Source: Gammaproteobacteria bacterium (GTDB lineage: Bacteria > Pseudomonadota > Gammaproteobacteria > Nevskiales > Nevskiaceae). Taken from it: DNA of 64,000 bases. A program made the translations under genes and the position numbers. A model generated the notes under the pieces. The model was not told where the DNA came from, ran no database searches, and saw only the letters and a program-made list of their open reading frames with translations. Shown piece by piece: positions 34 to 44,131 of this stretch. The DNA lies in NCBI GenBank assembly GCA_026398815.1, contig JAPLSA010000017.1, positions 1 to 64,000 on the forward strand, given 5' to 3'. Position 1 is the first letter of the stretch. The number at the start of each line of letters is the position of its first letter.

Positions 34-1164
34 TCAATCGGCGTCGCCGAGGCTGCCTTTCGACAGTTCGGAGTTGAGGTAGAACGCACCTTGCGTCGCG
101 ACCATCGCGCCAGGCTTCACGCCCTCGATCTGCTTGCGTTCGCCCAGATCCTCGATGATCGAGACCTTGACCCGCCGGAACTGCGTTTCGCCTTCCTGCA
201 CGAAGACCGCCCAGTTGCCGTCGGCGCCCTGATACAACGCGTCATTGGGCACTGCGATTGCATTATCGATATTGCCGATCTCGATGCGGCAATCGACGAA
301 CTCGCCGGTATGCAGGTGATCGCCCGAGGCTTTCACTTCGATGCGTACCGGAATGGTCCGGGTGCTCTCATCGATCAGGTGATGCTTCTGGACCACGCGG
401 CCGTCCAGCCATTGGCCATCGACCTGCACCCGCGCCAGCCCGCCTTCGATGACCTTGTTGGCATTGGCCGGTGACAGATTCGCTTCGACCCAGGTCGCCG
501 ACTCATCGGCAATGATGAACAACGCGCGACCCGGTTCGATGCGTTCGCCTTCGACGAAGGCATCGCTCAGCACCGTGCCAGCACGCGGCGCAGTCAAGGT
601 GAATTGGCCCAACGGTGATCCCGACTTCCCGGCAGCATCAGCGGCACTGAGACCATAGGCGACGAGCTTGGCGCGCGCCTGTTCGGCGGCGACGCGGGCC
701 TCGCTGTAGCGCCGTCCGCCTGATACCGCTTCGCCCAGTTCCTGCACGCGCGCCCAGTCGCGAGCCTTGAGCTGGGTTTCGCCCTGCGCCTCGGCAACTT
801 CAACGCTGGTCAGTGTCACCAGCGGCTGGCCCGCCTTGACCAGATCGCCGAGCTTGGCCAGACGACGCACGACCTGCGCGGGCACCCTCGTCGTCACTTG
901 GGCAGAGAGATAGTCATTGGCTTTCACTTCGCCGGGTGCCTGCAGCAGACGCGGAATCGTTTTGGCGACCAGCGCTTCGACCTTGATGCCGCCAAGGGCA
1001 GCGCCTTCCGGCTTGAGGGTGACGATCTCGCTTTCCGGCGCTTCGGCAGGTGTCGCTGGGGCTTCTGCGGGTGGCGGCGTCTTGGCGCCACAGGCGGTGA
1101 CGGCTTGCGCGGTGATGACAACGAAAGACAGCAGGATCAGCTTCTGGTTGAAACGCATGTTCAT
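34..1164 (-). CDS. czcB: CzcB-like periplasmic adaptor (membrane fusion) lipoprotein of a heavy-metal RND efflux system
   Basis: This 376-residue protein would link the inner-membrane RND pump to the outer-membrane channel of a cation efflux complex. It opens with a lipoprotein signal ending in a V-T-A-C lipobox, so Cys25 is the likely lipidated residue. A Pro/Ala-rich linker follows, then the biotinyl-lipoyl-like barrel with a central hairpin at about residues 80-190 and a beta-barrel region near 190-350, the usual HlyD/CzcB order and length. Its ATG overlaps the stop of the upstream czcC-like gene by four bases (ATGA), which indicates translational coupling. The pump gene starts 10 bases downstream. 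The exact metal (Co/Zn/Cd or Cu/Ag) cannot be read from this subunit; the CadR-like regulator next door favours Cd/Zn/Co. Confidence 0.85.
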   Translation of the reverse strand: MNMRFNQKLILLSFVVITAQAVTACGAKTPPPAEAPATPAEAPESEIVTLKPEGAALGGIKVEALVAKTIPRLLQAPGEVKANDYLSAQVTTRVPAQVVRRLAKLGDLVKAGQPLVTLTSVEVAEAQGETQLKARDWARVQELGEAVSGGRRYSEARVAAEQARAKLVAYGLSAADAAGKSGSPLGQFTLTAPRAGTVLSDAFVEGERIEPGRALFIIADESATWVEANLSPANANKVIEGGLARVQVDGQWLDGRVVQKHHLIDESTRTIPVRIEVKASGDHLHTGEFVDCRIEIGNIDNAIAVPNDALYQGADGNWAVFVQEGETQFRRVKVSIIEDLGERKQIEGVKPGAMVATQGAFYLNSELSKGSLGDAD

Positions 1165-2453
1165 TTCCCCGACGACGCGGTGGGATTGAGAGAGTCGGAC
1201 GTGGCGGCGGCGTCAAGCCAGGCCTGCCAGCGTCCAGTGGCGTCGAGCCATTCGGCCCACGACGCCCAGGTTTGTGCGCGCAGTTCGGCACCAGCGGCGC
1301 GGCCATCCAGCAGTTGCCGGAACTGCACGAGGTATTCGGCAGTGCTGATTTCGCGCACGCGCCAGACCTTGTCGAGCAGCTCGACACTGGCGTCGATGCG
1401 CGCCGACGACAGTCCGTTCCAGCGCATCCAAGCCGTGTGAGTGCGGCCGTATTGAGTCGCTGCGGCCTTCATGCGGGCGACGGCAAGCCGATAGCTGGCA
1501 TCGGATTCGATGCCAGCCGCCGACGCACGAGCGTCAGCGGCGGCGACCTGCGCCTTGAAGTTGTTCCGAAGAAACAACGGAATCGTCAGCTCCAGGCCGA
1601 CCAGCGAGCCCCCAGCGCCACCGCCCCGGTTTTCCTGAAAGCCGCCACGAACACCCACCGTGGGATCGCTCCGGGTTTCGCTGCGCGCGATGGCAATTTC
1701 GGCGCGTGCGGCTTCTGTCTTTGCGAGAGCTGCGCGAACGCCGGGAAGCGCGGCGGCCAGGGCGTTGTAATCCGCATTCAGAAGCCCGGACTCTGGCAAC
1801 TGATCCGGCAGCGGCGGCGGCGGGTAGCCGGGATGGCGGGTCGCAGCGTCCAGCGCTTGTTGGGCTTTCAGCAGATTCAGTTCGACGCGGCCGGTCACCG
1901 CAATCGCTTCCGCTCGCGCCAGGGCGGCGAGATCGCGATCCAGCACGCCGATATCGCCAGCCTGGTACTGGCGATCCGCGACTTCGGCAAATCGCTCCAG
2001 CAATTCCAGCCGCTGCTCAGCCAGCGATGAAGCCGCGATCTGGCCGTAAAGGTCGGCAAGGGCCTTCAGCACATCGGTCGCAATACGCTGCCGTTGCTCG
2101 GTGCGCTCGGCGACTGCAATGGCCAGCTCTGCCTGCCCGCTGGCTCGACGCGCTTCGCGCTTGCCGGACAGATCGAAGGTCTGACTGAGGCTGGCTTCGA
2201 GTGACTGGCTCTGGCCGTGCTCGCTGCCGATCCCGAGTTCGGGGTTGTACACCGACCGCGACAGATTGTCGGCTTGTGCTTCGGCGGCCGCGACGCGGGC
2301 ATCGGCGGCCTTCAGGTCGGGATGGGCCTGCAACACGTCCGCAAGGTATGACCGAAGGTCGGTCGAGACAGCTTCCCCGCCAAAACCTGGCAAGGCAGCC
2401 ATCAGCAGCGCGCCAGCCGCAAGACGGCCGAGGCGCTTGAGTAACAAAAACAT
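1161..2453 (-). CDS. czcC: CzcC-like TolC-family outer-membrane channel of heavy-metal efflux
   Basis: The protein has 430 residues from the ATG at 2453, chosen because a GGAG ribosome site lies about 7 bases before it; an in-frame start 36 bases further upstream lacks this. It begins with an Sec-type signal peptide (positively charged start, then a Leu/Ala-rich core to about residue 23). It then shows the two long Ala/Glu/Arg-rich helical repeats typical of outer-membrane efflux proteins, including an S-Q-T-F-D-L-S-G-K-R-E segment characteristic of CzcC relatives. It would form the outer-membrane exit duct for the CzcBA complex. It sits first in the C-B-A order and overlaps czcB by four bases. 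Confidence 0.85.
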   Translation of the reverse strand: MFLLLKRLGRLAAGALLMAALPGFGGEAVSTDLRSYLADVLQAHPDLKAADARVAAAEAQADNLSRSVYNPELGIGSEHGQSQSLEASLSQTFDLSGKREARRASGQAELAIAVAERTEQRQRIATDVLKALADLYGQIAASSLAEQRLELLERFAEVADRQYQAGDIGVLDRDLAALARAEAIAVTGRVELNLLKAQQALDAATRHPGYPPPPLPDQLPESGLLNADYNALAAALPGVRAALAKTEAARAEIAIARSETRSDPTVGVRGGFQENRGGGAGGSLVGLELTIPLFLRNNFKAQVAAADARASAAGIESDASYRLAVARMKAAATQYGRTHTAWMRWNGLSSARIDASVELLDKVWRVREISTAEYLVQFRQLLDGRAAGAELRAQTWASWAEWLDATGRWQAWLDAAATSDSLNPTASSGK

Positions 2454-2519
2454 GGGTGATCTCCACAGATGAACGCAGCGGACGCGCAAGCGACCGCAGG
2501 AAAAAGCGTCAGCGGGAGG

Positions 2520-2840
2520 TCAGGCTTGTGGTGGCGGCGTCAGCGGCGGCGTGGCACGCGTATGCGGCAGTGCGACAACTTCGAGGTCGAAACGCTCGTT
2601 CTCGTGCGCACAGATCACGAATTGCTCGCTGCAGAGGGCCTGAGAATGCGAGCCGCCGTGACAGCAGTGGTCACATTGCTTTTCGAGTTGGCCAGACTGA
2701 TCGGCGATTTCCTTCGCCAACTGGTACGCGCTGTCATGATCCGGTGGCGACCGCTCGACGTGATACGCATACGAAATCCCGCTCCAGGCGATCAGCATCG
2801 CCAGCAACAAGACTTTCCAGTTTTTGAGAACAGATCTCAC
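2520..2840 (-). CDS. Small CzcI-like Cys/His-rich exported protein
   Basis: This is a 106-residue protein with an N-terminal hydrophobic signal (residues about 8-25) and a probable metal-binding cluster C56-D-H-C-C-H61 followed by H65, C70, C77 and H79. Small exported proteins with such clusters (CzcI) precede czcC in several czc operons and modulate metal-responsive expression. Position before czcC, 66 bases upstream, and directly behind the MerR-type promoter supports that role. The start is a GTG at 2840 without a strong ribosome site, so the true start may differ. Family assignment rests on composition and context, not on a decisive motif. Confidence 0.55.
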   Translation of the reverse strand: MRSVLKNWKVLLLAMLIAWSGISYAYHVERSPPDHDSAYQLAKEIADQSGQLEKQCDHCCHGGSHSQALCSEQFVICAHENERFDLEVVALPHTRATPPLTPPPQA

Positions 2841-2876
2841 TTGATCAGGGTATCACGCGAAAACTCGATGACGGCT

Positions 2877-2907
2877 ATTAGAGACTTTATAGTAGCTTCA
2901 AGGTCAA
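2877..2907 (-). promoter_or_regulatory. MerR-type promoter/operator of the czc operon
   Basis: Reading the minus strand, TTGACC (2907-2902) and TCTAAT (2882-2877) are separated by 19 bases, the overlong spacer typical of promoters activated by MerR-family DNA distortion. The spacer holds an imperfect dyad ACCTTGAAG / CTATAAAGT that resembles CadR/PbrR/ZntR operators. It points into the CzcI-like gene and lies just upstream of the divergent CadR-like gene, so that protein is the expected activator. Confidence 0.75.
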
Positions 2908-2925
2908 GCCCTTTCGGAGCAACAT

Positions 2926-3390
2926 ATGACCAACCGCTATCGAATCGGCGATCTGGCGACCCGGCTCGCGGTGCCGACCCAGACAATCCGCTACTACGAG
3001 CACGAGGGCTTGCTACCCAAACCAGCGCGCACCGAAGGTAATTACCGGGTTTACGGCATTGCCGAACGTGAGCGCCTGACGTTCATCCTGCACTGCCGGG
3101 CGCTCGACATGACGCTGGACGAAATCCGCCATCTGCTGCGGTTGCGGGATGCACCGGGACAAGGCTGCGCCGAGGTCAATGCGGTACTCGATGCGCATAT
3201 CGGCCATGTTGCCGAGCGCATCCGGCTGCTGAATGACCTTCAGTTGCAACTCAAGGATCTGCGTGCACGCTGCGAGTCCCCGAGCACCTCGAAGGACTGC
3301 GGCATCCTGCAAGGGCTGGCATCGTTTCCGACAGCACAAGACGGCGGCGCCAGTCGAGCGGGGGGGCACGGGCGACGTGCACAGGAGTGA
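2926..3390 (+). CDS. cadR: CadR-like Cd(II)/Pb(II)-responsive MerR-family regulator
   Basis: This 154-residue protein has an N-terminal winged helix-turn-helix (about residues 6-25, then the R-Y-Y-E-H-E-G-L-L-P wing signature), a dimerisation helix, and cysteines C81, C116 and C125. Those three and the closing C-G-I-L-Q-G-L stretch are the hallmark of the CadR/PbrR subgroup that senses soft divalent metals. It is divergent from the czc operon and presumably binds the 19-base-spacer promoter between them. An ATG with GGAG six bases upstream sets the start. Its stop is followed within eight bases by the YnfA-like gene, so the two are likely co-transcribed. The C-terminal tail after residue 130 is longer and more Gly/Arg-rich than needed. 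Confidence 0.85.
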   Translation: MTNRYRIGDLATRLAVPTQTIRYYEHEGLLPKPARTEGNYRVYGIAERERLTFILHCRALDMTLDEIRHLLRLRDAPGQGCAEVNAVLDAHIGHVAERIRLLNDLQLQLKDLRARCESPSTSKDCGILQGLASFPTAQDGGASRAGGHGRRAQE

Positions 3391-3397
3391 TGGGGAA

Positions 3398-3727
3398 TTG
3401 ACTTGGATTGCTACCCTGGGCCTGTTCGTCGTGACCGCGCTGGCAGAGATTGTCGGCTGCTATCTCGTGCTGATCTGGGTCAAGCGGGACGGGCCTCTGC
3501 TGGCCTTGGCCGGATCGGTGTGCAGTCTGATGCTGTTCGCCTGGTTGCTGACGAGGCATCCCGCAGAATCAGGTCGGGTATACGCAGCGTATGGCGGGGT
3601 CTACACCTGCACGGCGCTCGCGTGGTTGTGGCTGGTGGATCGGGTGACGCCGAGCGCGCTTGACTGGGCGGGGGTGAGCACCATCGCCCTCGGATGCGGA
3701 ATCCTCGTGGTCTCGTCATTCCGCTGA
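3398..3727 (+). CDS. YnfA/UPF0060-family small four-helix membrane protein
   Basis: The protein has about 109 residues with four predicted transmembrane helices and the family's conserved stretches F-A-W-L-L-T near the middle and G-R-V-Y-A-A-Y-G-G-V-Y. The start is taken as the TTG at 3398 because AGGAG lies at 3383-3387, overlapping the end of cadR, and residues upstream of it do not fit the family; a GTG at 3377 is the alternative. YnfA-family proteins are small SMR-like membrane proteins of poorly defined substrate. Placement right behind cadR suggests a role in metal or toxic-cation export, but this is inference. Confidence 0.7.
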   Translation: MTWIATLGLFVVTALAEIVGCYLVLIWVKRDGPLLALAGSVCSLMLFAWLLTRHPAESGRVYAAYGGVYTCTALAWLWLVDRVTPSALDWAGVSTIALGCGILVVSSFR

Positions 3728-3875
3728 ACTGGCTATTCCGCCAACTTTTCGACCTCGGTGGCCAGCACTCGGAGAAGCGCCGCCGCCGCCTTCGGCGATT
3801 GGCTGGGTGCACATGCGAGGGCTAAAAGGGTCTCGGCCATCGAGGTCGAGAAACTTGTAGGGCGACAGCTCCGCT

Positions 3876-4274
3876 TCAAGCCGCCACGAGCACTTCGAAG
3901 ATCGGGCAGGCATCTCCGCCATCACCAGCATCGCACTGCCGAATCAGGCCAGTCAGCGCTTCGTGCATTGCCGCCAAATTGGCCATGCGCTGTTCGATGA
4001 GTGCCTGCTTCCGCACAGCCAGTTCCCGCGTGTCCGCGCACAGGCAGGCGGTTTCCAGTTCGAGCAGGCTGCCGATCTCGGAGAGTGTGAAACCAAGCCC
4101 CTGTGCCCGCTTGATGAAGCGAAGCCGCTGGGCTTGCTGATGGGTATATCGTCGATAACCGTCAGACGGCTTCGCCGGCTCGTCGAGTAGGCCCAACCGC
4201 TGGTAATACCGCACCGTCTCGATGTTCATGCCAGCCGCTTCGGCGAGCTTGCCAATCGTCAGTCCTGTCGCCAT
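3876..4274 (-). CDS. merR: MerR-type mercury-responsive regulator
   Basis: This 132-residue protein has the MerR winged helix-turn-helix at about residues 5-40 and a C-terminal sensor helix. Cysteines C77/C79, C114 and C123 are spaced like the three Hg(II)-coordinating cysteines of classical MerR, and the last lies in a D-A-C-P-I context similar to the Cys-Pro of Tn501 MerR. It is divergent from merT with the operator in between, the normal mer layout, and would repress merTP without mercury and activate it with mercury. A metal other than mercury is possible, but the merTP partners make mercury most likely. Confidence 0.8.
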   Translation of the reverse strand: MATGLTIGKLAEAAGMNIETVRYYQRLGLLDEPAKPSDGYRRYTHQQAQRLRFIKRAQGLGFTLSEIGSLLELETACLCADTRELAVRKQALIEQRMANLAAMHEALTGLIRQCDAGDGGDACPIFEVLVAA

Positions 4275-4284
4275 CGCCCGATCC

Positions 4285-4315
4285 TTGACTCCGTACCTTG
4301 GTACGGGGTTTAGAG
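4285..4315 (+). promoter_or_regulatory. mer promoter/operator with perfect CCGTAC-N4-GTACGG dyad
   Basis: TTGACT at 4285-4290 and TTAGAG at 4310-4315 are spaced 19 bases apart. The spacer carries CCGTAC-CTTG-GTACGG (4291-4306), a perfect 6+6 dyad nearly identical in layout to the Tn21/Tn501 MerR operator. It faces merT and lies beside the divergent merR, so MerR should bind here to control both directions. Confidence 0.88.
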
Positions 4316-4349
4316 TAACACCCAGATAAGCGGATCAAGGATGCGACGG

Positions 4350-4694
4350 ATGCAACTCACTGGGAAAACCTCGCTGCTCGCCGGTGTCGCTGCCGCGATC
4401 GGCGCGTCGGCGTGCTGTGTGGGACCGCTGGTACTGCTGGCCCTCGGCATCGGCGGATCGTGGATCAGCAATCTGACGGCGATGGAGCCGTACCGGCCTA
4501 TCTTCATCGGCCTGACGCTGTTGTTTCTCGGCCTCGCATTCCGTCAGCTCTACCTCGTGCCACAAGTGTGCGCGCCGGGAACGCCATGCGCCGATCCGAT
4601 CACCATGAAGCGCCAGCGCCTGATCTTCTGGATCGTGGGCACTCTGTTGCTCGGCTTGCTCGCCGCGCCCCTGCTGGCCCCGCTGTTCTACTGA
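4350..4694 (+). CDS. merT: MerT mercuric ion inner-membrane transporter
   Basis: This 114-residue membrane protein shows the MerT pattern. The first helix contains the vicinal pair A-C-C-V-G-P (Cys22-Cys23), then comes the G-G-S-W-I-S-N-L-T-x-M-E-P-Y-R-P-x-F-I-G stretch. A periplasm-distal loop holds the second cysteine pair (V-C-A-P-G-T-P-C), and a last helix ends in P-L-F-Y. It moves Hg(II) received from MerP across the inner membrane. Start ATG 4350 is preferred because AGGA lies eight bases upstream; ATG 4341 would add three residues. It is the first gene behind the mer operator. Confidence 0.88.
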   Translation: MQLTGKTSLLAGVAAAIGASACCVGPLVLLALGIGGSWISNLTAMEPYRPIFIGLTLLFLGLAFRQLYLVPQVCAPGTPCADPITMKRQRLIFWIVGTLLLGLLAAPLLAPLFY

Positions 4695-4708
4695 AACGGA
4701 GATTTCCC

Positions 4709-4990
4709 ATGCGCAACCCCTTCTGGACACTGCTGGCCCTCACGACGATGTCGCTCGCCGCCTTCGCGATGGCCCCTCAGACGGTCACGCTCGATGTTCA
4801 GAACATGACTTGCGCGGTGTGCCCGATCACCGTCAAGAAGTCGCTTCAAAGCGTCTCGGGCGTGAGCGAGGTGAGCGTCGACTTCGCGAAGAAGACGGCG
4901 CGCGTCACCTACGACGCGGACAAGGCGAAGTCTGACGACCTTACGGCCGCGACCACGAACGCCGGATATCCGTCGACCGTGCAGAAGTGA
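4709..4990 (+). CDS. merP: MerP periplasmic mercury-binding protein
   Basis: This 93-residue protein has a cleavable signal peptide (about residues 1-20) followed by a single heavy-metal-associated fold with the N-M-T-C-A-V-C metal site at residues 32-38 and the usual beta-alpha-beta-beta-alpha-beta sequence pattern. It binds Hg(II) in the periplasm and hands it to MerT. GGAG lies seven bases before the ATG. It follows merT by 14 bases and its stop overlaps the GTG of the next gene (GTGA), so all three are one transcription unit. Confidence 0.9.
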   Translation: MRNPFWTLLALTTMSLAAFAMAPQTVTLDVQNMTCAVCPITVKKSLQSVSGVSEVSVDFAKKTARVTYDADKAKSDDLTAATTNAGYPSTVQK

Positions 4991-5211
4991 CGCAGACCGT
5001 GAATACCGTCGTGTTTGAATCGGTGATTACCTGCCCGCGATGCGGGGTCTCGAAATCCGAGACCATGCCGGCGGATGCCTGCCAGTTCTTTTACGAGTGC
5101 AGCGACTGCAAGACGCTCTTCCGGCCGAACCCCGGTGATTGCTGTGTGTTCTGCTCCTTCGGCTCGGTGAAGTGCCCTCCGATTCAGCAGCAGAGTCGAT
5201 GCTGTGGCTGA
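4987..5211 (+). CDS. GDCCVxC-motif small cysteine-rich protein of a mer operon
   Basis: This is a 74-residue cytosolic protein with C-P-R-C at residues 16-19, a second C-x-x-C at about 38-41, and the signature G-D-C-C-V-F-C-S-F-G-S-x-K-C-P-P-I-Q, ending in C-C-G. This matches a known small family (GDCCVxC-domain proteins) that recurs in mercury and other metal-resistance operons and sometimes uses selenocysteine. Here every motif position is an ordinary TGC or TGT codon. It starts at a GTG overlapping the merP stop. A thiol role in binding or passing on imported Hg(II) is plausible but unproven; the family has no firmly established reaction. Confidence 0.75.
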   Translation: MTQTVNTVVFESVITCPRCGVSKSETMPADACQFFYECSDCKTLFRPNPGDCCVFCSFGSVKCPPIQQQSRCCG

Positions 5212-5533
5212 GTCCGAAGTTCTGTTCCACCGCGTCGCGATCCTCGAAGGCTGTTTGTCTATCGTGGAACACAACCGATCTGATGATTTAGACAACATGT
5301 TCCAAACCCTTAACTTGGCAGTCAAGAAAAGTTCAAGATTATGATTTTTAAGAGATATTTTTAGTGCGCTTCTCTGGTCTCTGGAACAATTTATCCGCGC
5401 ATAGCCACATCGAATGAAGTCATTAAGATCTGGGGCTGGCACTTTCACGGATTCTGATTGCCGCGCCGAGCAAAAAAATGTCGGAAGTAGCGGCCCGCCG
5501 CTCAATAAGTGGGGGATCTGCAATCTGAAAGTT
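5212..5533. other. AT-rich intergenic stretch between the mer cluster and the recombinase gene
   Basis: These 322 bases separate the plus-strand mer genes from the 3' end of the minus-strand recombinase. The sequence is clearly richer in A/T than the flanks, has no convincing reading frame of its own and shows no clear hairpin terminator. This is where merA would be expected in a full mer operon; no remnant of a reductase is recognisable. A recombination joint between the mer genes and the resolution module may lie here. Confidence 0.5.
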
Positions 5534-6658
5534 TCAAGCCTTGCGTCGACTCCGCCCAGCTTCGACGAGATCCGACGCTTTACTGGTCAACACGTCCCCG
5601 ACATCCGAATAGCGAACGACGCTCTTGGTCAGCCGGTGACCGGTCATCGCCATCGTCTGCGCGAGGGGAACGTCATTCAGCCCCGCTTCGGTCACGAAGC
5701 CGCGGCGCAAACTATGTCCTGCAAAATCACCCGGCAAACCCGCCTGATTTGCTCGCCGCTGAACGATCGCTGCGATCGCATGCGGTGAGAGTGCGGCGCC
5801 AACGGTTTTTCCCCAAAGCCGCCGGAACAAGGGTCCCTCGGTGATGCCGGCCGCTCTCAGCCAATCACGAAGTGCGGCTGCTGTTTCGCCTTTGATTGGC
5901 TTGGGTCCAGCGTCGTCGGTCTTCGACGTGCGCATCCGGAAAACGGCTTGATCAACCCCGATCCATTCAAGATCGCGGACCTCGGCGCGGGCGATCTCGG
6001 ATCGACGGCGGCCACCGCTGGCCCACCCGAAGAGCAGGATCGCGCGGTCCCGACGGCCTTCGAGCGACTCGTCACAGGTCTGCAGCATCAGGTCAAGCGA
6101 TTCGACGGTAGCGGCAGTTTTCGACTTCGGCCCCTCACCAATTTCGCGTGCCAGCTTGCGGCAGTCGGAGAGCAGGCGGCGAATGCTGGCGTCTCGGCAT
6201 GGGCTTTCGAAGTCTTTCTCCTGATGTGCCCACGACAGGATGGCCAGCCGCTGATCAATGGTGGTCATGCGGTGGCGGCCTGACTCGTTTTTGTAACCCG
6301 CCTCGATCAAAGCGTCGTCGACCGACTTCGGCATCCGGAAGTGCAGGACCAGCTTCGAGTGGCCATCACCCGTCGCAACGCGCTCGGGGTGTCCGAAATG
6401 GTCCACCACGAATAGCTGGACATGAGATACCGGGACAGGAAGGGAAAGCGGCTCGCCCAGCCGCATCTGCATCCAAGCGGCAATGTAGCGGAGCGCCTTC
6501 TGATAGGCCGACCAGGTTGCAGTGGGCGTGGCTGCAAGCCGGATTGCGAGCAGCGATTGCTCGACCTGTTGCTGCACGGCATCGAGATCAACGGGCGTTT
6601 GAACGGGCGCAATCGCGGCAACAGCATCGGATACGGCCGTTAAGGATGATGATTTCAT
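5534..6658 (-). CDS. Tyrosine recombinase (integrase or TnpS-like cointegrate resolvase)
   Basis: This 374-residue protein has an N-terminal SAM-like core-binding domain (about 25-180) and a C-terminal catalytic domain. The active-site set is visible: an Arg in G-G-R-R-R-S-E (near 218), Lys246, His315 and Arg318 in H-S-L-R-R, His341 in T-G-H-R and the nucleophile Tyr350 in V-V-R-Y-S-D. It is divergent from a KfrA-like coiled-coil gene across a 121-base AT-rich region holding an inverted repeat. That pairing matches TnpS/TnpT of Tn4651/Tn5041-type Tn3-family transposons, where the pair resolves cointegrates. A plain island integrase is the alternative. No tRNA lies next to it, and no tnpA is seen in the window. 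Confidence 0.82.
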   Translation of the reverse strand: MKSSSLTAVSDAVAAIAPVQTPVDLDAVQQQVEQSLLAIRLAATPTATWSAYQKALRYIAAWMQMRLGEPLSLPVPVSHVQLFVVDHFGHPERVATGDGHSKLVLHFRMPKSVDDALIEAGYKNESGRHRMTTIDQRLAILSWAHQEKDFESPCRDASIRRLLSDCRKLAREIGEGPKSKTAATVESLDLMLQTCDESLEGRRDRAILLFGWASGGRRRSEIARAEVRDLEWIGVDQAVFRMRTSKTDDAGPKPIKGETAAALRDWLRAAGITEGPLFRRLWGKTVGAALSPHAIAAIVQRRANQAGLPGDFAGHSLRRGFVTEAGLNDVPLAQTMAMTGHRLTKSVVRYSDVGDVLTSKASDLVEAGRSRRKA

Positions 6659-6696
6659 ATAACGTATTCTGTATTATTCATTACGAAATAAATCTG

Positions 6697-6727
6697 TACC
6701 TACGATAACGAACCCTTAACGTAGGTA
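6697..6727. repeat. Inverted repeat in the recombinase/KfrA-like intergenic region (candidate resolution or operator site)
   Basis: TACCTACG at 6697-6704 is the exact reverse complement of CGTAGGTA at 6720-6727. With two mismatches the arms extend inward to 14 bases each. The repeat lies in the AT-rich gap between two divergent recombination-related genes. It could be the recombinase core site, the binding site of the KfrA-like protein, or both. Confidence 0.65.
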
Positions 6728-6779
6728 TAAGCCATTTCTAGGCAATTTAGAATCACGGCACTACTGAGAGGATATTCGG

Positions 6780-7859
6780 ATGCGAACGGGCGTCACTTTG
6801 ATCGACATCACGCGCGCTGCCGATCAGCTGCTGGCCGAGGGAGAAAGACCCACTGTCGAAGGCGTCCGCAAGGTGCTGGGTACCGGATCGCCCGGCACCG
6901 TTAATACCTTGCTGAAGGAGTATTACCAGGCACTGCCGGCGCGGCTGAATCTTCCGGCACCAATCGCTACGGCTGCCGCCGAGCTATACGAAAAAGTTCG
7001 TTCGACCGCGATGGAGGAGGTCAACGAAGCGCGCACTGAGCTTGAGCGTCAGCATGTGTCGCTGCAGGAGGCGCTTGCGGCCGACAAACAGGGCTTCGAA
7101 GCGGAAAAAGCCTCATTAAAATCGCAGGTTACGTCGCTTATGTCAGAAGCGAGGGGCCTCCAGGAGCAACTCGGTCAGGCGGCCGAGAGACAACGGACAC
7201 TGGAAGAAGCGCTATCCGATCAGACGGTACGCGCCAGCGCTGCCGATGCCAGGGCCTCCGCCGCAACTGAAGAGCGTGAGCGCGCGGAGCAGCGTTACAT
7301 CTCCGAACTGCAGCATGTTCGTGACCAGGCTGCAGGGAATGAACGCCATCTGTTATCGCGAATTGAAGAAGCTCAGGATCAGCTCAAGCGGTTAAAAGTC
7401 GAGCGTGAAAGAGAGGTTTCCGCGTCAGCAAAGCGTATCGCAACGCTTGAATCCGCTGCATTTGAAGCGGCTAAGGAGCTTTCAGCGCTGCGCACCGAGA
7501 TCGCCGCAGCCCAACGAGAGGCGGCTGGGCTGCGGGAAGCAGCGGCTTCAGCTGAGGCTGCTGCACTCCGAGACCGTGAAAGCCTGGTGAGGGATCTGCG
7601 AGCCACCGAGGAAGGACGGGATAGAGCCCTTGCGGAGGGTTTTCGCCTGCGAAGCGAGCTGGACAAAGCGGTTATCGATCGGAACGAAGCCATCCGCGAG
7701 GCGGGTAGGCACGAAGGTCGAGCGGCTGCGTTTCAAGGGCAGGTGGAAGAACTATCCCGAAAACACGCCGAGGTGGCATCGACTTTAGCTGCGGCTCAGA
7801 AGCCAGCGCTCCCCAGTCAGCCGGAGTTATTCACGCAAGAGGGGCCGGTTTCACCATGA
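6780..7859 (+). CDS. KfrA-type N-terminal DNA-binding protein with long coiled coil (TnpT-like)
   Basis: This 359-residue protein has an N-terminal DNA-binding module (about residues 1-60, with E-G-x-R-P-T-V-E-G-V-R-K-x-L-G-x-G-S-P-G-T-V) typical of the plasmid KfrA family. It is followed by roughly 270 residues of Ala/Glu/Arg/Gln-rich coiled coil. GAGAGGA lies seven bases before the ATG. In Tn4651-like transposons the coiled-coil partner TnpT binds the resolution site and helps the tyrosine recombinase TnpS; the divergent arrangement here matches that. KfrA proteins elsewhere act as plasmid autoregulators or partition aids, which is the alternative. Confidence 0.75.
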   Translation: MRTGVTLIDITRAADQLLAEGERPTVEGVRKVLGTGSPGTVNTLLKEYYQALPARLNLPAPIATAAAELYEKVRSTAMEEVNEARTELERQHVSLQEALAADKQGFEAEKASLKSQVTSLMSEARGLQEQLGQAAERQRTLEEALSDQTVRASAADARASAATEERERAEQRYISELQHVRDQAAGNERHLLSRIEEAQDQLKRLKVEREREVSASAKRIATLESAAFEAAKELSALRTEIAAAQREAAGLREAAASAEAAALRDRESLVRDLRATEEGRDRALAEGFRLRSELDKAVIDRNEAIREAGRHEGRAAAFQGQVEELSRKHAEVASTLAAAQKPALPSQPELFTQEGPVSP

Positions 7860-8003: not shown

Positions 8004-9197
8004 CTATTGATTTTGAAGGAATCCCAAACCGCCACTTTTTCCTTCTTCAACCAGATGACCCCGATCCTGACGCGATGGAATGCGCTGCACGGTCTGGATC
8101 GGCACGCCGATGTAGTCGCGATCGTTGGAAACATTCCAGTCCCAGTAGCGCCAGGCGCTGACCGAGGTCAGCGTATGCGCGTCCAGGGTCCATTCGGAGA
8201 TCAGCGAGACGCCACCATCCTGGGTGTCGATGCGCAGGTCGGCGTCGATATCGGTCACCCGGTCGTAGACATCGCGGCTGGGCGGCTGGTAGCCGAGCCC
8301 GGCCGCCAGCGCCGGGAACTGCCGCGCGGCGTTGCGCCGGCTCCGGCCGACACGCAGGAAGCTCTGCGTGCAGCAGGCGGCATCCTGGTCCGACACATCG
8401 GCAATCAAGCGGAGCTTGAGATCGCTGTGGGCGCGGAACAGCAGCTGGCCGCGCAGCGCGAAGTTGTTCAGCGCATTCAGCTCATCGCCGGTGACGACGT
8501 TGTCGATGACGCCGTCGCGGCGCGTGAACTGCCCGGACACCCGCGCCGCCAGCAGGTCTTCCAGCACCGGCCCGGAGAATCCGCCCTTGGCCTGGAAGAA
8601 ATTGAACTGGCCGAACGACACCTCGCCGTTCGATTCGGGCGTGAAGGTCGGTTCGCGGCTGATGATGTGGATCGCGCCGGCCGTGGTGTTCTTGCCGAAC
8701 AGCGTGCCCTGCGGACCGCGCAGCACTTCGATGCGCTCGATATCGGTGAAGTCGAACGACGCGGTGGCCGGACGCCCGTGATAGACCTGATCGACATAGA
8801 AGCCGACGCCCGGCTCGATGCCGTCATTGGCGGCGCTGACCGAGAGCGTGTTCGAGCCGAGCCCGCGAATCGTGTAGGCGGTGTTCCTGGGATTGGCGGA
8901 GTTGTAGTAGAGCGACGGCACAAGCTGGCTCAGCGCCTGCACATTCACCGTGTAGCTGCTGTCCAGCAGACTGCCGTCGATCACCGATATCGCCGCCGGC
9001 ACCGATTGCAGGCTTTCCTCGCGGCGACGCGCCGTGACGATCACCTCGCTCAGAACGGCCGCCTCCCCGTCTGCGGTTGCCACGGCTTGCGTGCTCGTAG
9101 CCGCCGTTGCTGCTTGCGCAGGTGCTGCTTCCTGGGCTGCGGCGGGCGCTGCAATGACGCTCGCCGACAGCGCGGCAAGAACGGATTTGGCAAACAT
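8004..9197 (-). pseudogene. TonB-dependent receptor truncated at its 3' end by a mobile element
   Basis: The readable 397 residues begin with a signal peptide, then a TonB box-like segment (S-E-V-I-V-T-A-R-R-R-E-E-S-L-Q), a complete plug domain (about 60-170, with I-E-R-I-E-V-L-R-G-P-Q-G-T-L-F-G-K-N-T-T-A-G-A) and the first strands of the barrel. Typical receptors of this kind have 700-800 residues. After about residue 380 the translation changes to an unrelated Gly/Glu-rich tail, G-H-L-V-E-E-G-K-S-G-G, that is read from the candidate element end, and then stops. Most of the beta-barrel is missing, so it is almost certainly non-functional. The original substrate cannot be told. Confidence 0.85.
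8018..8062 (-). repeat. Candidate transposon terminal inverted repeat at the TonB-receptor breakpoint
   Basis: Read on the minus strand from 8062 the sequence begins GGGGTCATCTGG and continues into a purine-rich run containing the motif repeated at 7881-7896. Tn3-family ends usually start with GGGG and are 38-48 bases long. The start coincides, within a few bases, with the point where the TonB receptor stops resembling its family. The matching other end would lie left of this window, so the assignment is unconfirmed. Confidence 0.5.
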
Positions 9198-9422: not shown

Positions 9423-10949
9423 TCAGCGCGGGCGCTTGCGTCCGCGTTCGGGGATCGTCACCGCCTGCTCGTAGGCGTGCGCGGCGCGGTAGATCGTCGC
9501 CTCGTCCCAGTAACTGCCGATCAGCATCATGCCGATCGGCAGGCCGTTCGAGGTGCCGCAGGGAATCGAGATCGCCGGGTGGCCGCTGGCGTCGAACGGC
9601 GCGGTGTTGGCGATCATTTCCAGGCCGCGGGCGCAGCTTTCGGCCGGCCCGCAGTCGGCCGGCGGAATCTTCGTCGCCTTCATCGGCGTGGTCGGCATCA
9701 GCAGCAGGTCGTAACGCGACAGCGCGTCGTCGTAGGCGGCGCGGAGCTGGCGGTTGAGGTTCTGGGCTTTGGCGTAATGGTGGCCGCGATACTTCTTCAG
9801 CACGTGATGGCCGAACAGCATGGTGAGCTTGACGGTGTCCGACAGCTCGTCGGCGCGCTGCCGCCAGGCGTCGTGGGCGCGCTGCAGGCTGGTCACGTAC
9901 AGGCCCTTCCAGTTAAAGCCGAAGCCGTTGCCGTGCATCATCTGGGTGGTCGCCCCTTCGTGGGCGATCGCCGACCAGATGACCATGCCGACCGTGTGCA
10001 TCGGGATCGATACCTCCTCGACCACCGCGCCGAGCTTGCCGAACCGCGCGGCGGCACGCTTCACGGCGGCGTCGACATCAGCTTCGGAATTGCCGTGGCC
10101 GAAGCCTTCGCGGACCACGCCGATGCGCAGGCCCTTGACCGGCTGGCCGAGCGCGCCGAGGTAGTCGCCGCGCCGCACCTCGACCTGGCGGGCGTCCAGG
10201 CCATCGCTGCCGGCGATGACATCGAGCAGCAGCGCGTTGTCGGCGACGTTGGCGGTCATCGGCCCGATGTGATCGAGCGTGGCCTCGATGGCCATGATGC
10301 CGGTGTACGGCACCAGGCCGTGGGTGGCCTTCATGCCGACGATGCCGCACCACGAGGCGGGCATGCGGATCGAACCGCCTTGGTCGCTGCCGATCGCCAT
10401 GTCGACCTCGCCGGTCGCCACCAGCACGGCGCTGCCCGACGACGAGCCGCCGGACGAGTAGCCCGGCTTGTGCGGATTGATCACCGGTCCGAGCGCGCCG
10501 GTGTGGCTGCCGCCGGAGAAGCAGAAATATTCGCAGTGCGACTTGCCGAGCACGGTGCCGCCGGCATCGAGGATGCGCGTCACCAGCGTGGCGTCGACGT
10601 CCGGAACGTAGCCCTGCAGGGTCGAGGCACCATTCATCATCGGCACGCCGGCCACGCAGATGTTGTCCTTGATCGCGAAGGTCTTGCCCTTCAGCGGGCC
10701 GGCGGCGGCGCCGTCGATACGGCTTTTCACGTACCAGGCGTTGTGTGGATTCTCTGCAGCACTCGGCTGGTAGCCTGGCGTGCGCGGATAGGCCACGCGC
10801 GGCAGCACGTCCGGCATGTCTTCCAGCGCCGTATAGGCGGCGACCGTGCCGTCCATCAGGCCAAGGAAGCTGTCGATCTCAGCGGCCGACAGATGCAGGC
10901 CCAGTTCGCGGGCCACCTCGGCCATCTCATCGTGTGTCGGCTTTTTCAT
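9423..10949 (-). CDS. Amidase-signature amidohydrolase, predicted second step of nitrile degradation
   Basis: This 508-residue protein of the amidase-signature family hydrolyses amides to acid and ammonia. The Ser-cisSer-Lys triad is visible: Lys94 in A-I-K-D-N, the Gly/Ser-rich G-G-S-S-S-G-S-A segment at about 167-174, and the nucleophile Ser193 in D-Q-G-G-S-I-R. An N-terminal helical extension of about 80 residues resembles that of Rhodococcus-type enantioselective amidases linked to nitrile hydratases. It is divergent from the nitrile hydratase genes across 155 bases, so it most likely converts their amide product. A GAGGAAA ribosome site lies upstream of the ATG. Confidence 0.9.
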
Positions 10950-11104: not shown

Positions 11105-11731
11105 ATGTCCCAGGATCACGATCATGCGCACGGGCATGACGCGCCGCTTCCCGAGGTGGTGCTGCGCGTGAAGGCGCTAGAAGCGCTGCTGATCGAGAAG
11201 GGGCTGGTTGATCCGGCTGCGCTCGATGCCATCGTCGATACCTACGAAACACGGATTGGTCCGCGCAACGGCGCCCGCGTCGTGGCCCGAGCCTGGACTG
11301 ATCCCGCCTACAAGGCGCGGCTGCTCGCCGATGGCAGCAAGGCGATCGCCGAACTGGGCTATTCCGGCGTGCAGGGCGAGGACATGGTGGTGGTGGAGAA
11401 CACGCCGGGTGTCCACAACATGGTGGTCTGCACGCTGTGCAGCTGCTATCCATGGCCGACGCTCGGGCTACCGCCGGTTTGGTACAAGTCCGCACCGTAT
11501 CGTTCGCGCGCAGTGATCGATCCACGCGGCGTGCTGAAGGAGTTCGGTGTCGAGGTTCCGGCCGACACGGAAGTGCGGGTCTGGGATTCCAACGCCGAGC
11601 TGCGCTACTTCGTGCTGCCGGAGCGCCCGCCGGGCTCGGAAGGTCTCGACGAAGAGGCGCTGATGGACCTGGTGACCCGCGATTCGATGATCGGCACCGG
11701 GCTGCCCAAGGCAGCCGGGGCGCAACCATGA
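11105..11731 (+). CDS. nthA: Cobalt-type nitrile hydratase alpha subunit
   Basis: This 208-residue metal-bearing subunit hydrates nitriles to amides in the cytosol. The metal site is V-C109-T-L-C112-S113-C114; Thr in the second place of C-T-L-C-S-C marks the cobalt (non-iron) type. The His-rich start (residues 4-11) and the [14 protein letters not shown] and [13 protein letters not shown] segments match Co-NHase alpha chains such as that of Pseudomonas putida. GAGGAG lies just before the ATG. Its stop overlaps the start of the next gene (ATGA). Confidence 0.95.
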
Positions 11732-12051
11732 ACGGCGTGCACGACATGGGCGGCATGCAGGCCTTCGGACCGATCGACCGCGATGCCGAAGAACCGGTGT
11801 TCCATGCCGACTGGGAAAAGCGCGTGTTCGCGCTGTTCTTCGGCGGCTTCGCCGGGGGCTTCTTCAACGTCGACATGTTCCGCGCCGAGATCGAGCGGAT
11901 GCCCGGCCACGAGTACTTGCGTTCCAGCTATTACGAACACTGGCTGCACGCGATCGAAGCGCTGCTGATTCGCGGCGGCGCGGTCACCGATGTCGAACTG
12001 CAGGCGAAGATCGCCGAACTGCGCGCCGCCGGCCGCAAGGCGGCGCACTGA
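11728..12051 (+). CDS. Nitrile hydratase beta subunit, N-terminal half encoded as a separate gene
   Basis: This 107-residue protein begins [10 protein letters not shown] and has W-E-K-R-V-F-A-L and [14 protein letters not shown], the hallmark features of the helical N-terminal half of NHase beta. A normal beta subunit is about 215-235 residues; this one stops in the linker, and the following gene supplies the C-terminal half, joined by a one-base overlap (TGATG). Three-subunit relatives exist (thiocyanate hydrolase, toyocamycin nitrile hydratase). A single-base frameshift that split one beta gene is the alternative. The start overlaps the alpha stop by four bases. Confidence 0.88.
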
Positions 12052-12404
12052 TGCCCGCCCTGCCGCTGGAGATGGTCGCACCGCTGCTGGCTACTGGCGC
12101 CTCGACGCGGATGCCGGACACCGAACCGCCGCGCTTCAGTCCCGGCGACGCCGTGATCGCCAGGAACGTGCATCCGCTGAACCACACCCGACTGCCCCGC
12201 TACATCCGTGGCAAGCGCGGCACGGTGCGCGCCGACAACGGCACGTTCTCATTCAACGACACGGTTGCCCACGGGCTCGGCCACGAACCGCAGCATGTCT
12301 ACAGCGTGCGTTTCAGCGCGCAGGAGCTGTGGGGCCCACAGGCCTCGCCGCTCGACTCGGTCTACATCGACCTGTTCGATCGCTACCTCGACCCCGCGCC
12401 ATGA
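12051..12404 (+). CDS. Nitrile hydratase beta subunit, C-terminal half encoded as a separate gene
   Basis: These 117 residues correspond to the SH3-like barrel half of NHase beta: R-F-S-P-G-D-A-V near residue 28, H-T-R-L-P-R-Y-I-R-G-K-x-G-x-V near 45-58, H-G-L-G-H-E-P-Q-H-V-Y-S-V-R-F and E-L-W-G. The Arg residues of H-T-R and the following R-Y/R-G-K lie where beta-subunit arginines contact the oxidised metal cysteines. The first 25 residues align with the linker of ordinary beta chains, so no coding sequence seems lost at the split. ATG overlaps the previous stop by one base, and the next gene overlaps its stop by four. Confidence 0.88.
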   Translation: MPALPLEMVAPLLATGASTRMPDTEPPRFSPGDAVIARNVHPLNHTRLPRYIRGKRGTVRADNGTFSFNDTVAHGLGHEPQHVYSVRFSAQELWGPQASPLDSVYIDLFDRYLDPAP

Positions 12405-12769
12405 ATACGCCGCCACCGCTGCCCGCCGGCCTGCCGGCCATCCCCGCTGATGCCGACGGCCCGGTGTTCCGCGAGCCCTGGGAAGCGCAGATCTTCGCGC
12501 TGGTGATCCGCAGCCATCAGCGCGGTGCCTTTAGCTGGCACGAATGGGCGGAGACGCTGGGCGCCACCATCAAGGCCGCGCAGGCCGCCGGCGATGCCGA
12601 TCTCGGCGACACCTACTACCAGCATTGGGTCGACAGCCTGGAAGCGCTGCTGATCGCCAAGGGTCTGACCGATGCCGAGCGCCTGCACGCGCTCGAACAC
12701 GAGATCGCCGAACGCCCGACCGGCCGCCACACGCACGTGGCCCGGCGTACGCCGGTGCTGGTTTGCTGA
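12401..12769 (+). CDS. Nitrile hydratase accessory (activator) protein, beta-N-terminal-like
   Basis: The protein has 122 residues and resembles the N-terminal half of NHase beta: P-V-F-R-E-P-W-E-A-Q-I-F-A-L, S-W-H-E-W-A-E-T-L-G and Y-Y-Q-H-W-V-D-S-L-E-A-L-L. Small proteins of this type (P14K/NhlE-like) act as self-subunit-swapping chaperones that load cobalt into the alpha subunit and help its cysteine oxidation. The four-base overlap (ATGA) with the preceding beta-C gene and the cobalt permease behind it support that role. With the beta split, this operon has two separate small proteins of the same fold. Confidence 0.85.
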   Translation: MNTPPPLPAGLPAIPADADGPVFREPWEAQIFALVIRSHQRGAFSWHEWAETLGATIKAAQAAGDADLGDTYYQHWVDSLEALLIAKGLTDAERLHALEHEIAERPTGRHTHVARRTPVLVC

Positions 12770-13818
12770 AAGCCGCGTTCAGCGATGCCGCAGGCGGCCA
12801 GCGCTACAAGCTGACCGCGCTCTTCGCACTGCTGCTGGGCCTGAACATCGCGGTCTGGATGCTCAGCCTGGCGGTCTTTCGCGGCAATCCGGCGCTGCTC
12901 GGCACGGCGGTGCTGGCCTATGTGTTCGGGCTGCGCCATGCGGTCGATGCCGACCACATCGCCGCCATCGACAACGTCGTCCGCAAGCTGATGCAGGAAG
13001 GCAAGCAGCCGCTGACGGTCGGCTTCTGGTTCTCGGTCGGCCATTCGTCGCTGATCGTCATCGCGGTCGGCGTGATCGTGCTGGCGGCCTCGGCGCTGCA
13101 GCAGCGCATGGACGGCTACCGCGACATCGGTGGCCTGATTTCCACGGCGGTCTCCGGCTTCTTCCTGCTGCTGATCGCGGTCACCAACTTTATGATCCTG
13201 AAAGGCGTCTGGCGCAGCTTTCGCCGGGTGCGCGCCGGCCTGCCGGTCAGCGATGACGATCTCGACCTGCTGCTGGCCGGCCGTGGCTTTCTGGCGCGAA
13301 TGTTCCGTCCGCTGTTCCGGCTGGTCGGCAAGAGCTGGCACATGGCGGCGATCGGCTTCCTGTTCGGCCTGGGCTTCGACACCGCGACCGAGATCGCTCT
13401 GTTCGGCATGGCTGCCACCCACGCCATCGACGGCATTCCGCTGTGGTCGGCCATGCTGTTCCCGGCGCTGTTCGCCGCCGGCATGGTGCTGATCGATACC
13501 GCCGACAGCGTGCTGATGGTCGGCGCCTACGGCTGGGCTTTCGACCATCCGGTCCGGAAGCTCTGGTACAACCTGACGATCACCAGCGTGTCGATCCTGG
13601 TGGCCGTGGTGATCGGTGGCATCGAGGTCATCGGCCTGCTGGCGCGCAAGTTCGAGATCGAGGGCCGTGCCGGCGCGCTGATCGAGCAGCTGGACGCCGG
13701 TCTCGAGAACGTCGGCTATCTGGTGATCGGCGTGTTCGCCGTCAGCTGGCTGCTGTCGGCGGCGATCTACCGCTGGAAGCGCTACGACGACCTGCCGGTG
13801 GTGCGCCACGGCGTCTGA
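12763..13818 (+). CDS. NiCoT-family cobalt/nickel permease serving the nitrile hydratase
   Basis: This is a roughly 351-residue inner-membrane protein with about eight transmembrane segments. The diagnostic H-A-V-D-A-D-H-I-A-A-I-D-N motif of the HoxN/NhlF/NixA family lies in the second helix, with F-W-F-S-V-G-H-S-S and L-G-F-D-T-A-T-E-I further on. It imports Co(II) and/or Ni(II); cobalt is expected because it closes a Co-type nitrile hydratase operon, as NhlF does in Rhodococcus. The start is uncertain: a TTG at 12763, overlapping the accessory gene's stop by 7 bases, is the most reasonable choice and implies translational coupling. Confidence 0.9.
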   Translation: MLKAAFSDAAGGQRYKLTALFALLLGLNIAVWMLSLAVFRGNPALLGTAVLAYVFGLRHAVDADHIAAIDNVVRKLMQEGKQPLTVGFWFSVGHSSLIVIAVGVIVLAASALQQRMDGYRDIGGLISTAVSGFFLLLIAVTNFMILKGVWRSFRRVRAGLPVSDDDLDLLLAGRGFLARMFRPLFRLVGKSWHMAAIGFLFGLGFDTATEIALFGMAATHAIDGIPLWSAMLFPALFAAGMVLIDTADSVLMVGAYGWAFDHPVRKLWYNLTITSVSILVAVVIGGIEVIGLLARKFEIEGRAGALIEQLDAGLENVGYLVIGVFAVSWLLSAAIYRWKRYDDLPVVRHGV

Positions 13819-13889: not shown

Positions 13890-13965
13890 TGGTGGAGCGG
13901 AGGAGGATCGAACTCCCGACCTCTGCATTGCGAACGCAGCGCTCTCCCAGCTGAGCTACCGCCCC
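13890..13965 (-). tRNA. tRNA-Ala, anticodon CGC
   Basis: The 76 bases fold as a complete cloverleaf on the minus strand with an encoded CCA end. The acceptor stem is GGGGCGG paired with CCGCTCC (one G-U pair). The T-arm contains GGTTCGA-type loop bases (GTTCGAT), and the anticodon stem CTGCG/TGCAG closes a TTCGCAA loop. Anticodon CGC reads GCG (Ala). A short hairpin with a T run follows. Confidence 0.93.

Positions 13966-44055: not shown

Positions 44056-44131
<76 letters not shown>

Follow-up and report, generated by a model that had tools for sequence, protein, structure and literature searches.

The locus described here raises the question of whether a nitrile hydratase (NHase) beta subunit encoded as two adjacent genes belongs to a genuine enzyme or reflects a broken gene and, if genuine, to which kind of enzyme. 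NHases, which turn nitriles into amides, are industrial catalysts, and their cobalt loading depends on the alpha subunit swapping an activator protein for the beta subunit. The locus lies in a 64,000-nucleotide stretch of DNA, the whole of which we refer to as the window, from a 4.3 Mb assembly that is 95.6% complete (G000) and in which the single match to the beta C-domain family is the window's own beta-C gene.

Gene content of the locus

The genes concerned, with one divergent neighbour, are as follows.

9423–10949, − strand: amidase of the PRK07235 family, divergent neighbour (NF005565, 792 bits; cut-off 545)
11105–11731, + strand: NHase alpha with the CTLCSC metal-claw motif (TIGR01323, 313.9 bits; cut-off 249.85)
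11728–12051, + strand: beta-N, the N-terminal half of NHase beta as a separate gene, 107 residues (Pfam NHase_beta_N)
12031–12047, + strand: Shine–Dalgarno-like stretch within the end of beta-N, 5′ of the beta-C start (AAGGCGG at 12037–12043)
12049–12053, + strand: TGATG, joining the beta-N stop and the beta-C start with a 1-base overlap
12051–12404, + strand: beta-C, the SH3-like C-terminal half of NHase beta as a separate gene, 117 residues (Pfam NHase_beta_C)
12401–12769, + strand: NHase activator (accessory protein), a homologue of the beta N-domain (TIGR03889, 87.1 bits; cut-off 46)
12763–13818, + strand: NicO/HoxN-type Ni/Co transporter (TIGR00802, 387.3 bits; cut-off 333.05)

From alpha to the activator, each gene overlaps the next on the + strand, with ATGA overlaps at the alpha/beta-N and beta-C/activator boundaries. 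The start codon of the NicO gene is uncertain, and the TTG at 12763 is a proposal from the sequence. The gene order in the original prediction (alpha, beta-N, beta-C, activator, Co permease) was borne out, the transporter being of the NicO Ni/Co type. The alpha chain exceeds the cut-off of the NHase alpha model and carries the C-T-L-C-S-C claw at positions 108–113. Its closest alpha chain in the PDB is that of the Co-type Pseudomonas putida enzyme (E = 1e-102), in agreement with the earlier description of a standard Pseudomonas-type alpha. The activator that marks a Co-type NHase is likewise present above its cut-off, and it was also matched by beta-N models in profile searches. The locus should work like a Co NHase.

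A tRNA-Ala (cgc) gene lies just behind the NicO gene (13890–13965, −) and a tRNA-Asn (gtt) gene lies at 44056–44131 (−). Elsewhere, the window encodes HlyD/CusB-like and outer-membrane efflux proteins (34–2489), a tyrosine integrase (5534–6658) and a KfrA_N protein (6780–7859), together with open reading frames at 2926–4990 that we take to resemble MerR regulators and MerT/MerP. The stretch from 34 to 7859 looks like a heavy-metal island with its end near a TonB-dependent receptor (8004–9197, −), which has a plug domain and no barrel match in its 397 residues and seems to be truncated, beside the integrase and the KfrA-like gene.

The beta chain is divided between its two domains

The closest solved counterparts of the window's alpha and beta halves belong to the P. 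putida Co-type NHase (PDB 3qxe), the beta of which is one chain of 219 residues, whereas that of the window is two. The two window products matched Pfam NHase_beta_N (E = 5e-36) and NHase_beta_C (E = 3e-33), respectively. In the alignment to P. putida beta (3qxe family), beta-N corresponded to residues 1–93 and beta-C to residues 104–219, and the break was therefore placed in the interdomain stretch. The halves covered positions 1–105 and 115–226 of the 226 positions of NCBIfam TIGR03888, so little or nothing of beta is missing. These results uphold the earlier claims that the split falls inside the interdomain linker and that nothing seems to be absent on either side; the coordinates, the lengths of 107 and 117 residues and the TGATG junction that had been reported were all exact. 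Against TIGR03888, the halves scored 118.4 and 129.3, each below the cut-off of 152.2, which by this strict beta-model cut-off places the locus outside the single-chain-beta family.

In 79 fused betas, 11 N-domain and 12 C-domain columns reach a conservation of at least 95%, and the window protein has all of them. Among 30 split rows, 29–30 kept each of the 11 N columns and 28–30 kept each C column except one, that of residue L113 of the window protein, which was kept in 21. The N-half residues Arg52, Glu56 and Tyr68 and the C-half residue Arg47, which we take to be active-site residues, were present in the window protein and in every one of the 30 split rows, and the alpha CTLCSC claw was retained in all 30. 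Modelled alone, beta-C formed a compact domain (mean pLDDT of 85) with P. putida NHase beta as its best PDB match. Beta-N alone gave a poor model (pLDDT of 58, from an alignment of only 5 rows) that was worst over its first 26 residues; in NHases, the N-terminal arm of beta wraps alpha.

The junction is shared by congeners and both halves are under selection

The original prediction had proposed that close relatives be searched for the same two-gene split, and the junction was found in three congeners. Among 18 genomes of the window's genus, its own included, four carry the split beta gene, and a fifth has a different, fused NHase. The TGATG sequence, its position and the lengths of 107 and 117 residues are identical in all four, and beta-C is 88–93% identical between the window and the three congeneric assemblies. 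Across the six pairs of these genomes, dN/dS was 0.126–0.175 for beta-N, 0.068–0.119 for beta-C and 0.073–0.112 for the first 200 codons of alpha. The first 20 codons of beta-C, just past the break, showed almost no amino-acid change (pN of 0.00–0.05 and pS of 0.32–0.66), and the last 25 codons of beta-N were less constrained (pN of 0.09–0.20). Both beta halves are under purifying selection.

The split layout recurs across genomes and plasmids

Using home-made HMMs for the alpha, N, C and activator domains, we classified 173 distinct NHase loci. Alpha, fused beta and activator formed the layout of 102 loci; alpha, N, C and activator that of 27, with 5 more in which the activator also has a C-type domain; an N, C, alpha split that of 17; alpha and fused beta with no activator detected that of 13; and a fused beta ahead of alpha that of 9. 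Because the survey seed profile (A1) was built from split sequences and the classified loci are part of the places found, the sample is biased toward splits, the 32 alpha-first splits among 173 are not a frequency, and the surveyed loci are related to each other, such that the counts are not independent. In the 17 N-C-alpha loci, an activator was sought behind alpha over 283–1,363 bases and none was detected, a span beyond which a more distant one would be missed. Eight of the alphas from these 17 loci were scored: the NHase cut-off was exceeded by five and that for thiocyanate hydrolase (SCNase) by one (L131), and the other two fell below both.

The alpha-first splits are distributed over 25 genomes of the window's phylum and six distinct plasmid sequences, namely those of the cyanobacterium Gloeocapsopsis dulcis, Rhizobium sp. 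NIBRBAC000502774, Agrobacterium vitis (two), A. tumefaciens and Aminobacter sp. MSH1; a seventh plasmid record duplicates one A. vitis sequence. The 32 include both A. vitis sequences (L019 and L088) and one broken locus (L171, genome G561), without which 24 genomes in 12 families carry the layout. The beta halves are named 'SH3-like domain-containing protein' in the Gloeocapsopsis and Aminobacter records, and the gene tables of five Agrobacterium/Rhizobium plasmid records (L018, L019, L085, L088 and L089) do not list them. In these five, the series of locus tags lacks one number between nthA and the accessory gene, yet the split pair has both domains open; the skipped tag is perhaps a beta gene marked as a pseudogene.

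Several loci depart from the common form. The activator-like N-domain and a C-type SH3 domain share one open frame in L193 (4358–5056, +), L194, L195, L196 and L157 (reverse strand), which come from genomes G657, G744, G815, G774 and G665 and form one clade (99–100% SH-aLRT in the 124-row and 74-row trees described below); a further activator-like gene lies behind the fused activator in G774 and G665. Genome G665 also has fused and split betas next to each other: in L153 (reverse-complement 3284–5724), a full set of alpha, beta-N, beta-C and activator genes is immediately preceded by a fused beta. The G561 locus (reverse-complement 1256–2243) has a tandem pair of beta-N genes followed by beta-C, with an in-frame stop upstream of the conserved part, and looks broken. 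In genome G032 (L208/L006), beta-C ends in a Lys/Arg/Ala-rich tail about 100 residues long, and the activator looks broken, with its matches divided between two reading frames.

Junction geometry and translation of beta-C

The beta-C start was assigned by rule as the candidate closest to the beta-N stop, with ATG preferred (GTG in L122 and TTG in L017), which gave a start for 31 of the 32 alpha-first split loci. Relative to the beta-N stop, it lies at −1 in 20 of the 31 and at −4 in 6; distances of +1, +4, −8, −14 and −20 occur once each. The Gloeocapsopsis locus (L017) has its TTG at −4, and the annotated start is instead 47 bases past the beta-N stop.

The Shine–Dalgarno signal was assessed by pairing the 17-base stretch ending 3 bases 5′ of the beta-C start with the 16S tail and comparing it with phase-matched stretches of the same beta-N genes. 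The mean pairing energy was −6.8 kcal/mol at the junction versus −3.1 kcal/mol elsewhere in these genes (30 loci), and the junction ranked in the top tenth in 19 loci and in the top fifth in 24 (Wilcoxon p = 9e-9, uncorrected for kinship). The stretch in the window has a duplex energy of −6.4 kcal/mol and a rank of 0.07. A clear signal was absent in 6 of the 30 loci (ranks of 0.21–0.79), with the cyanobacterial locus the worst. The junction signal fits re-initiation on a coupled gene.

Error, decay and recoding as alternatives

A one-base change at the junction would join both beta frames, and alpha, fused beta and activator is the commonest layout surveyed, as might be expected if an ordinary beta gene had been disrupted by a faulty base in sequencing or assembly, or by a recent frameshift. 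The original prediction had held a one-base frameshift to be the main alternative. However, the split layout is found in 25 genomes and six distinct plasmid sequences (32 of the 173 loci, which as a survey count is not a frequency), dN/dS is low on either side of the junction and the Shine–Dalgarno-like signal stands at the junction itself. With the junction repeated in three congeneric assemblies and purifying selection acting on both halves, the split is not a sequencing error, and we give a recent mutation or an assembly fault virtually no weight. The same selection, the conserved residues in both halves and the family scores of an intact alpha, activator and transporter speak against a decaying, non-functional NHase with a broken beta gene. 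Such decay is very unlikely, even though the G561 beta-C does contain an in-frame stop and the single locus tag skipped in the five Agrobacterium/Rhizobium records is consistent with a single pseudogene feature (the gene tables used omit pseudogenes).

Programmed ribosomal frameshifting at the junction could also yield a joined beta, alone or alongside the halves, and the beta-C frame is indeed −1 relative to beta-N wherever the overlap is 1 or 4 (26 of 31 loci). However, our search for recoding signals, which covered slippery heptamers, found an in-frame X XXY YYZ heptamer within 45 bases of the beta-N stop in 1 of the 31 loci, the window being among those without one. Moreover, the frame relation is different in G032 (L006), a member of the window's own family with its start 1 base past the stop, the annotated Gloeocapsopsis start lies well beyond the stop, and the Shine–Dalgarno-like signal matches re-initiation. 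We therefore consider frameshifting unlikely and retain the reading of a real two-gene beta, which the shared congener junction and the low dN/dS on both sides bear out.

Origins of the alpha-first splits

The trees were of a 'quick' type with many weak nodes. In a tree of alpha (82 rows, without L131), the N-C-alpha splits formed their own clade with 100% SH-aLRT; in a tree of alpha, N and C (124 rows), they did so with 99%, L131, which scores above the SCNase cut-off, included. In both, the alpha-first splits fall among the fused alpha-beta-activator enzymes. Topologies were tested on a 74-row tree that left out L131 and L081. Placing all splits in one clade costs 171 log units (AU p = 4e-5), and placing all 30 alpha-first split rows in one clade was rejected as well (p = 1e-50). 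One clade of 26 of these 30 rows, picked after viewing the tree, was unrejected (p = 0.12).

Rejection of a single alpha-first clade implies that the layout was gained or lost repeatedly. The fewest changes between split and fused states among alpha-first loci were five in the 124-row tree and seven in the 74-row tree. L163 groups with fused genes of its own family (96–98% in both of these trees). In the 74-row tree, L008, L122 and L124 make up a clade with 95% support that lies among fused genes, but in the 124-row tree they are near the main split group; these three loci and L163 have odd junctions, with −8, −14, +4 and −20 among them. A 100% clade of 26 split and 4 fused rows in the 124-row tree was not recovered as such in the 74-row tree, which puts the window in a 97% clade with 16 split rows in all and leaves several split rows unplaced. 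Unless re-fusion was repeated, the alpha-first splits appear to fall into two to three separate groups. Since the 26-row clade is unrejected, re-fusion is possible, although not needed, in the fused Pantoea/Klebsiella rows found among the 26 split rows; in their linkers (L020 and L022), no clear left-over internal start Met was seen.

Since both the joint clade of all splits and the single alpha-first clade are rejected, the layout is recurrent rather than a step toward thiocyanate hydrolase. The suggestion that the locus could be an evolutionary intermediate, taken as one toward that type, is thus not supported, the alpha-first splits standing apart from the N-C-alpha splits. Its other proposal, a separate three-subunit class, holds in that the three-gene NHase layout is distinct from thiocyanate hydrolase and does not hold as one lineage.

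Comparison with known split-beta enzymes

Thiocyanate hydrolase from Thiobacillus thioparus (PDB 2dd4) has separate beta-N-like and beta-C-like chains, as does the window. The three-way division of the protein is common to both, and free-standing SCNase chains appear among the Foldseek matches of the beta-C model, at ranks 24–26. However, ranks 1–23 are all NHase betas, the beta-N similarity reaches only E = 0.16, and the window alpha scores 177.5 with TIGR03887, the model of the NHase-alpha-like gamma chain of SCNase (cut-off 291.45), compared with 313.9 with the NHase model, so that by the SCNase model it is classed as no thiocyanate hydrolase. The nearest printed layout to that of the window is the alpha, beta, gamma, activator order of T. 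thioparus SCNase, one of six gene orders given in a review, which thus lists an activator gene for that enzyme as well (PMC7193024). By the subunit order given there, the NHase-alpha-like chain comes last, whereas the window alpha is first. With this gene order and the rejected joint clade, it is extremely unlikely that the locus encodes a thiocyanate hydrolase or an intermediate toward one, and an NHase remains the preferred assignment.

Split-beta enzymes are already known, namely thiocyanate hydrolase and the toyocamycin and Streptomyces canus NHases. In S. canus, beta consists of two chains, AnhD and AnhE, both needed for activity, and AnhD serves as metal and swapping chaperone in a system in which no activator gene was found (PMC7329996 and PMC13243292). 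The window resembles it in having the beta halves in separate genes and differs in having an activator (12401–12769) and a Ni/Co transporter. The N-C-alpha loci differ from the window in gene order (N, C, alpha versus alpha, N, C) and in forming a separate clade; S. canus is outside the tree, and we assume that it has the N, C, alpha order because its genes are called AnhD, AnhE and AnhA. Toyocamycin NHase, which was compared by description and is also outside the tree, shares three chains with the window and differs in being an antibiotic pathway enzyme. ToyJKL is an (alpha beta gamma)2 hexamer with subunits of 21, 10 and 11–14 kDa (PMC8574189), the alpha of which is reported to be catalytic alone (PMC7329996), and the three-subunit NHase of Microvirga flocculans has alpha between two betas (PMC11573777). 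The original prediction had named thiocyanate hydrolase and toyocamycin NHase as three-subunit relatives, and its list omitted the S. canus and Microvirga enzymes (PMC7329996 and PMC11573777). Surveyed fused relatives of the window NHase mostly have the order alpha, beta, activator. In the literature searched, with subscription papers mostly outside its scope, we recognised no description of the alpha, beta-N, beta-C, activator layout. The locus represents a genuine, recurrent, activator-linked split-beta NHase with alpha first.

Proposed enzyme and its implications

We consider it very probable that the locus encodes an activator-dependent, Co-type NHase of three chains, with beta halves made from two translationally coupled genes. 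In this scheme, the ribosome would stop beta-N at TGA and re-initiate on the overlapping ATG, assisted by the Shine–Dalgarno-like stretch inside the end of beta-N, such that the halves would be made in similar amounts. They would then dock side by side on alpha like the two domains of an ordinary beta, giving a three-chain unit that is probably (alpha, beta-N, beta-C)2. The NicO protein would import Co and the activator would load it into alpha, after which the beta halves would replace the activator. The divergent amidase could hydrolyse the product amide to the acid.

A more specific maturation relay is possible, albeit doubtful. The activator would load Co into alpha, beta-N alone, which when free is a homologue of the activator, would displace it, and beta-C would close the active site last; the five loci with an SH3-bearing activator would be the mirror solution, a chaperone mimicking whole beta. 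If this relay were true, beta and the activator would be interchangeable sets of domains, which bacteria would have separated and fused again many times over.

One predicted split-beta enzyme is encoded on plasmid pUSP2 of Aminobacter sp. MSH1, an organism that turns dichlobenil, a nitrile herbicide, into its amide (PMC8460812). Split beta genes are likely to be mis-annotated, and the natural two-piece betas would provide a ready set for engineering. With a recurrent, activator-linked beta in two pieces, it could also be tested directly whether the N or the C domain of beta displaces the activator.
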